From: Prochlorococcus marinus str. MIT 0912
GTDB lineage: Bacteria > Cyanobacteriota > Cyanobacteriia > PCC-6307 > Cyanobiaceae
Assembly: GCF_027359595.1 (NCBI RefSeq)
Contig: NZ_CP114783.1
Coordinates: 992,001-1,056,000 of the forward strand
Length of the DNA stretch: 64,000 nt
Direction: 5' to 3'
The notes below the pieces were generated by a model, which worked only from the letters and a program-made list of their open reading frames with translations, had not been told where the DNA came from and did no database searches. The translations under genes and the position numbers were made by a program. Of the stretch, positions 443-1,030 are shown in pieces (within the stretch, counting starts at the first letter, position 1; every line of letters begins with the position of its first letter).

Positions 443-544
443 TAGAGGTAACCGAAACCTCTATCTAGTAATATTTATTTGCCTGACGGTACCTCTTTAA
501 ATAGAGGCGGGTCAAAACTTAAACCGCTCGGGCTTCCTGCCCGA
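443..544 (+). promoter_or_regulatory. Structured leader of the rimP-nusA-infB operon with alternative hairpins
   Basis: Four complementary segments can be read directly: 443-449 TAGAGGT, 457-463 ACCTCTA, 491-496 ACCTCT and 503-507 AGAGG. Segments 1:2 and 3:4 form two local hairpins. Segment 1 can instead pair with 3, and segment 2 with 4, so the structures are mutually exclusive. A third hairpin, TCGGGC-TTCCT-GCCCGA, lies at 528-544 in unusually GC-rich sequence for this genome. Such an arrangement is typical of cis-acting RNA switches or attenuators. That it regulates the operon is inference. No known motif class was recognised. Confidence 0.5.
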
Positions 545-559
545 CTTCGACACTGCCTT

Positions 560-1030
560 TTGTCTAATCAAACCGTTACAGAATTGAAAGTTCTTACAAC
601 AAAGTCAGCCACTAATCATGGCTTTGATGTAACAGATTTTCAGATGTTCACGCATCTAAATCCCTTATCAATTCAAGTAAACATTCGACACAAAAATTCT
701 GAGAAAAAAGTCACTCTTGATGACTGTTCTATTCTTAGCCAATATATTGACAAAGCTATTCAAAGTTCCTCCATTCTTGATCAGCCATTTACTTTAGAAA
801 TAAGCAGTGAGGGAGTTAGTGATCTCTTAACTGAAGAAAAAGATTTTGAAATTTTCAAAGGTTTTCCAATTGAAGTTACTTATCAGGATTTAAAAAAAAT
901 TGAGCAACAAATAAATGGTTTGCTTCTAAAAAGGACTGATAATGATCTACAAATAAATCAAAAGGGTAAAACTCAGCGAATCCCAGTCGAAGACGTTATT
1001 CAAGTCCGACTCACAACACCTTCTGGTTAA
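560..1030 (+). CDS. rimP: Ribosome maturation factor RimP
   Basis: RimP assists late maturation of the 30S subunit. The product has the family pattern: an N-terminal alpha/beta domain with D-D-C-S (residues about 53-56), then L-E-I-S-S-E-G-V-S and F-x-x-F-K-G-F-P, and a C-terminal Sm-like barrel ending in I-P-x-x-D/E-V-I. The reading frame is open from a TTG at 479, but 479-559 is GC-rich and forms hairpins, so I prefer the TTG at 560. It gives 156 residues, close to the usual length of about 150; another TTG lies at 584. It is the first gene of rimP-nusA-rnpM-infB, as in most bacteria. The product is certain; the start is uncertain. Confidence 0.9.
   Translation: MSNQTVTELKVLTTKSATNHGFDVTDFQMFTHLNPLSIQVNIRHKNSEKKVTLDDCSILSQYIDKAIQSSSILDQPFTLEISSEGVSDLLTEEKDFEIFKGFPIEVTYQDLKKIEQQINGLLLKRTDNDLQINQKGKTQRIPVEDVIQVRLTTPSG

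Follow-up and report, generated by a model that had tools for sequence, protein, structure and literature searches.

A conserved leader RNA with mutually exclusive folds upstream of rimP-nusA-ylxR-infB in picocyanobacteria: a candidate switch of the rimP-leader type

The rimP-nusA-infB operon is very widespread. According to the accessible text of one report (PMC6511841), the E. coli operon is cold-responsive and has two terminators ahead of rimP, so that the leader is a site of regulation elsewhere too. Does the leader of this operon in Prochlorococcus marinus str. MIT 0912 contain a regulatory RNA and, if so, which of its segments pair and at what level would it act? We examined a window of 64,000 nt from contig NZ_CP114783.1, in which an earlier note had described mutually exclusive hairpins ahead of rimP. 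The complementarities on which that description was built are all present in the sequence: 443-449 (TAGAGGT) and 503-507 (AGAGG) can each pair with 457-463 (ACCTCTA) and 491-496 (ACCTCT), while 528-544 reads TCGGGC-TTCCT-GCCCGA. The source genome is a single contig of 1.90 Mb. Its 14 relatives with names are Prochlorococcus single-cell genomes or MAGs with RimP identities of 81-88%, and we infer that the strain belongs to the low-light clade. The leader region precedes the following genes, identified by Pfam.

560..1030, plus strand: rimP (RimP_N), with a UUG start at 560-562 according to the start codon survey
1087..2556, plus strand: nusA (NusA_N, KH_5)
2553..2828, plus strand: ylxR (YlxR)
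2889..6437, plus strand: infB (IF-2, IF2_N)

The transcript probably begins near position 480, since a TAnnnT box lies 6-9 nt ahead of the first conserved RNA base (model column 2) in 120 of the 132 aligned relatives. A promoter consensus scan returned a sole site, on the minus strand and at chance level.

469..474, plus strand: predicted -10 box TAATAT, from the sequence and the position of the TAnnnT box in relatives
480..482, plus strand: predicted transcription start, with 6 nt between the -10 box and base 481, where the conserved block begins

When 76 upstream regions were aligned, conservation, judged by eye, spanned the -10 box through the hairpin at 528-544; nine divergent loci (L078, L082, L087-L089, L096-L099) had been dropped from the alignment of upstream regions. 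One further set comprised 91 loci, with some near-duplicates and leaderless loci excluded, and L082, L087 and one antisense match were removed from another. Three models were built: R1 contains helices P1, P2 and P3, R2 contains a three-way junction, and R3 uses sequence alone. R1 was trained on 37 family sequences that leave out the window's close relatives and include three less closely related members of its genus.

480..546, plus strand: conserved leader RNA element (CM R1 63.7 bits, E 3.7e-12; CM R2 60.2 bits)

At E<=1, this is the single match of R1 in the genome. R1 detects the element in 34 of 37 searched genomes of the window's genus, and the three genomes that give no match (G025, G026, G029) likewise give none for rimP. 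Family searches, run at E<=0.01 plus stricter filters with which weak matches are lost, place the element in 113 of 300 genomes and 36 of 59 genera with R1; with R2, an element of about 66 nt is found in 133 of 300 genomes and 38 of 59 genera, the 167 genomes without a match being in part diverged, in part leaderless and in part incomplete. Nearly every genome with a match has one element, and the few weak family matches, such as a second one in G278, may be due to chance. All 79 rows (of 132 aligned) whose locus has a RimP match carry the element just upstream of rimP on the same strand, at an estimated 10-22 nt from the element end to RimP. Beyond the family but within the class, R1 was run on 23 genomes and gave eight weak matches, the best with E 0.11. 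Genus g18, with AT-rich genomes of 1.6-1.7 Mb, is absent from the 38 genera with an R2 match; no element is visible by eye in six of its rimP loci (L133, L134, L137, L147, L148, L150), where the upstream region is AT-rich. We infer that g18 probably corresponds to high-light Prochlorococcus; the apparent loss across this genus is a natural control.

Within the element, the 5' end can pair with the segment AACCG-n-UCGGGC to form helix P0, which closes a three-way junction holding P2 and P4. The helices are listed here with the means of cross-genus permutation z scores.

481..490, plus strand: P0 5' arm, pairing with 523-526 and 528-533, with 527 bulged (z -4.9)
523..533, plus strand: P0 3' arm, of which 528-533 doubles as the P3 5' arm
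492..507, plus strand: P2 hairpin, 492-496 with 503-507 (z -6.1)
509..520, plus strand: P4 hairpin, 509-512 with 517-520, weak and G-U rich in the window (z -2.9)
528..544, plus strand: P3 hairpin UCGGGC/GCCCGA, 528-533 with 539-544 (z -3.8; short arms -2.7)
503..513, plus strand: P5 5' strand, reusing the P2 and P4 arms; suggestive (z -1.9)
549..560, plus strand: P5 3' strand, with 552 bulged, extending to the first U of the start codon

Against dinucleotide shuffles, the fold of 481-546 has z -2.59 and that of 440-560 z -3.55. The permutation test exchanged duplex energies across genera (37 groups, the window's genus split in three, 30 random representative sets, L082 and L087 excluded). Control pairings in the same test gave -1.0, -0.9, -0.2 and +0.5. 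Taken by arm, the outer part of P0, which is common with P3, scored -4.5 and the inner part -3.0, against -0.1, +0.7 and +1.2 for the controls. These scores are not exact probabilities, as the draws overlap and the genera share ancestry, which the controls have too. P0, P2 and P3 are supported at the level of whole helices, and no control pairing stands out; P4 is likewise supported at that level. P5 is suggestive, its covariation being weak (p of 0.17, 0.01 and 0.02 in single draws). An R-scape-like test on 77 rows found no column pair with E<1; the primary sequence is highly conserved and power is low. The compensatory changes whose absence the earlier note had named as evidence against itself are thus seen in tests of helices but not in those of single pairs, a partial answer. 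The hairpin at 528-544 proves to be real and conserved (P3), while the pairing of 503-507 with 491-496, described there as part of the alternation, is simply the common hairpin P2.

The structured models outperform sequence alone on 53 held-out loci: over the 47 of these that R3 found, R1 has 51.2 bits, R2 50.9 and R3 40.3. In group g35 (16 loci, none of them in training), R2 reaches 28.4 bits versus 18.9 for R1. For the other 37 loci, many of them congeneric with training sequences, R1 has a small lead (59.2 versus 56.3 bits for R2), which is expected if P3 is also real. A pseudoknot built from P1 (CCUG/CAGG) and a bulge helix had been tried as the main fold; it was rejected, with a z score of -0.8 for P1 and a preference of the g35 loci for the three-way junction. 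The held-out alignment of 49 distinct rows, which was fitted to the model and hence favours it, and which includes two antisense matches, contains 65 double-change cells versus 26.1 +/- 3.6 after shuffling; with the partners shifted by +1, 40 such cells remain. Pairing is also often lacking in this alignment, in up to 33 rows, at several inner columns of P0 and at one of P4.

P0 and P3 both use 528-533 and are thus mutually exclusive, a relation that the comparison supports at the helix level. At one column shared by the two helices, the three partners read G-C-G in 105 of 130 rows, G-U-A in 13, A-U-A in 2, and A-U-G and A-C-G in 1 each, with others in 8; in places, all three change together. 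Locus L195 retains a P0 of 12 bp, several pairs of which have changed. The two states are close in energy: ddG averages -0.26 kcal/mol, lies within 3 in 76 of 130 sequences and favours P0 in 51 of 130, and the minimum free energy (MFE) fold is P3 in 65, long P0 in 48 and another structure in 2 of 115 family elements. For the window, the P0 junction has a probability of 1.0 in RNAs ending at 534 or 538, and P3 one of 0.99 in the RNA ending at 546, with energies of -22.7 for P3+P5 versus -20.2 for P0+P2+P4. P5 has a probability of 0.83 at RNA end 562 and of 0.25-0.42 from 566 on (0.33-0.42 at 37 C). P3 dominates (0.99) in RNAs of 566 and longer; the junction must therefore be kinetically or protein stabilised there. 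The MFE fold of 481-580 is without P5, and it pairs leader UGACGGU (484-490) with ACCGUUA inside rimP (near 571-577).

What these folds would control depends on P3 and on the start codon. P3 bears the GGGC..GCCC motif familiar from the rimP-leader terminator, yet no U-tract follows it: the longest T-run within about 11 nt is <=3 in 127 of 132 rows, and no terminator-like site was found within 330-620. Classical termination is therefore unlikely. From P3 to the start codon, the median distance is 14 nt (quartiles 13-15; in this survey of distances and T-runs the start codon is doubtfully placed in at least four rows, L069, L072, L086 and L176). Among element-bearing family rows, rimP starts with UUG in 115, GUG in 6, CUG in 1 and AUG in none (122 read of 132). 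At the homologous place outside the family, we read 40 AUG and 2 GUG (42 of 50 loci, with class locus L116 read at a doubtful place). Judged by eye, UUG is apparently retained in all six g18 loci that are without the element, so it does not need the leader, and L131 and L136 are deep loci with no leader and an AUG start. P2 is formed with the SD-like GGAGG in 51 of 130 rows and with ACCUCC, the letters of the 16S tail, in 44 of 130; the corresponding letters in the window, AGAGG and ACCUCU, come close to these. The 16S tail pattern occurs once in this genome.

With confidence slightly better than even, we propose that the 5' leader of rimP-nusA-ylxR-infB is a cis-acting RNA switch derived from the rimP-leader attenuator and acting on translation (or through NusA-dependent pausing). 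The nascent RNA can form the junction P0/P2/P4, its 5' end holding the P3 5' arm; once the P3 3' arm is transcribed, P3 becomes possible and P0 impossible, two steps that the cross-genus comparison supports. P3 together with P5 may then be an OFF state in which the weak UUG is closed to initiation, since P5 would pair the P2/P4 strand with both the spacer and the U that opens the UUG, and the junction may be the ON state. NusA, RimP, an initiation factor or the 30S subunit could bias the choice during transcription, and control would be exerted at the level of translation. P3 probably descends from the GGGc..gCCC terminator of the rimP leader minus its U-tract, a homology that is plausible; with the U-tract lost, control would have shifted from termination to translation or NusA-stimulated pausing. 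Picocyanobacteria thus appear to have swapped a terminator for a compact switch of exclusive folds, and AUG for UUG. This makes the question of the effector (NusA, ribosome or initiation factor) testable through the 66-nt element.

We take the known rimP-leader attenuator to be Rfam RF01770. The present leader resembles it in its position before rimP-nusA-infB and in its GGGc..gCCC hairpin (here P3), and resembles transcription attenuators generally in its two mutually exclusive structures (at the helix level, not that of single pairs). It differs in having no U-tract, hence not being an intrinsic terminator, and in its long-range three-way-junction antagonist, situated about 14 nt before the UUG. 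It also gives no Rfam match: at the gathering score, the window has three, none of them within the leader, and a search of 360-620 with E up to 10 returned four, all far under the gathering score (the sub-threshold matches include DUF805b at 443-473 and PhotoRC-I at 530-542). The leaders of 18 relatives gave no match either, including the 11 class loci among them that have ordinary cyanobacterial rimP terminators, so that a missing Rfam match distinguishes the element only weakly. Such a cyanobacterial terminator leader (AAGUGGGU..GCCCACUUUUUUU) likewise places a GGG/CCC hairpin upstream of rimP; unlike the present element, it has a T-run terminator and mostly an AUG start. In several class loci (for example L105, L108, L109, L120 and L124), inspection by eye finds CAUUUC-N3/4-GAAGUG or a near form ahead of the terminator; this small hairpin overlaps the terminator 5' arm and is a possible mini antiterminator. 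Autogenous leaders of ribosomal-protein operons and the AUU start of infC are further cases of structured leaders and non-AUG starts in translation-machinery operons, although the start here is UUG and that of infC AUU.

In the accessible text of Naville and Gautheret (2010, PMC2965389), the rimP-leader terminator is headed "the most ubiquitous transcription attenuator", NusA is favoured as its effector, as a proposal only, and several Gammaproteobacteria are credited with a second terminator that has a clear potential antiterminator; no word starting "cyanobacteri" occurs in that main text. The accessible texts of Axmann 2005 (PMC1242208) and of a Red Sea mdRNA-Seq paper (PMC5069720) do not mention nusA, infB or rimP, nor does that of Weinberg 2010 (PMC2864571) mention nusA or infB. 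The titles and abstract openings searched, which exclude subscription journals and supplements, contain no description of the element, and start-site studies may already have recorded its 5' end. Our results suggest an undescribed control switch of the rimP-leader type, yet a distinct one because one defining feature, the U-tract terminator, is missing.

The strongest rival sees in P3 a vestigial terminator or a hairpin at which NusA stimulates pausing, such that the switch acts on transcription and excess NusA raises pausing in its own leader. The presence of nusA in the operon speaks for this, as does the GGGC..GCCC motif retained in P3, for which NusA is the best candidate effector (Naville and Gautheret, accessible text of PMC2965389). 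So does the finding that 39 of 50 loci outside the family have, ahead of rimP, a GGG hairpin with a T-run, a count that has no shuffled control and in which several hairpins are distant from rimP and could be those of the gene before it. Against it stand the missing U-tract and terminator-like site and the narrow 14-nt spacing to the start codon, which suits translation better; we consider this rival unlikely. NusA feedback through the leader, which the earlier note had raised, is possible but putative.

A static 5' end appears less likely still; its sole role would be to make the mRNA more stable or to place the ribosome, and P0 and P3 would overlap incidentally, through the resemblance of the 5' end to the P3 3' arm. 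Such a static end would account for the high conservation of the primary sequence, for the lack of a significant pair in the R-scape-like test and for the dominance of P3 in full-length window folds. It sits poorly with the near-equal energies of the two states across 130 sequences and with the P0 outer arm and P3 5' arm, which fit each other better inside a genus than across genera (z -4.5) where controls do not. Doubtful, and a shade more so than a static end, is the idea that the leader senses how the translation machinery itself stands: initiation factors or free 30S subunits would open P2 or disfavour the UUG and so tip the balance of P0 and P3, which would place RimP, NusA and IF2 under feedback wherever the ancestral terminator has been replaced. 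A metabolite riboswitch, with a small molecule bound by the three-way junction, is very improbable: the junction and a hairpin resembling an expression platform would fit, but the P4 loop and junction letters differ between genera (by eye), nearly all genomes with a match have a single one, the downstream genes encode ribosome and transcription machinery, and no Rfam match at the gathering score falls in the leader.

The remaining alternative, to which we give hardly any credence, is the four-part attenuator of the earlier note, in which 443-463 pairs within the same RNA; its segments are complementary, 440-560 folds more strongly than shuffled sequence, and at least seven pairs of 443-463 are kept in 23 of 32 genus rows when G-U is counted, but this stretch lies upstream of the conserved -10 box, has seven Watson-Crick pairs in only 4 of 32 genus rows, and its core motif, block GAGGTAACCGAAACC (22 of 32 genus rows), is missing from all 98 other family rows with sufficient upstream DNA.

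443..463, plus strand: first dyad TAGAGGT..ACCTCTA, upstream of the predicted -10 box; probably promoter DNA, genus-specific

Since 443-463 lies upstream of the conserved -10 box and its motif is confined to the genus, two of the four proposed arms (443-449 and 457-463) are most likely promoter DNA outside the RNA, and the four-part layout within one RNA probably does not exist. A start of transcription downstream of 463, which the earlier note had named as evidence against itself, is what we predict. Its broader claim, that of a leader RNA with exclusive folds ahead of the rimP operon, is supported, with other partners than those it had named. The stretch is an imperfect dyad directly upstream of the -10 box, kept within the genus, and is perhaps a regulator site common to rimP and the divergent minus-strand gene at 3-353, for which Pfam gives no more than a weak Trypsin_2 match below the cut-off. 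Elsewhere in the window, Rfam places a glutamine-II riboswitch at 19455-19512 and a 5_ureB_sRNA match at 30657-30943 on the minus strand.
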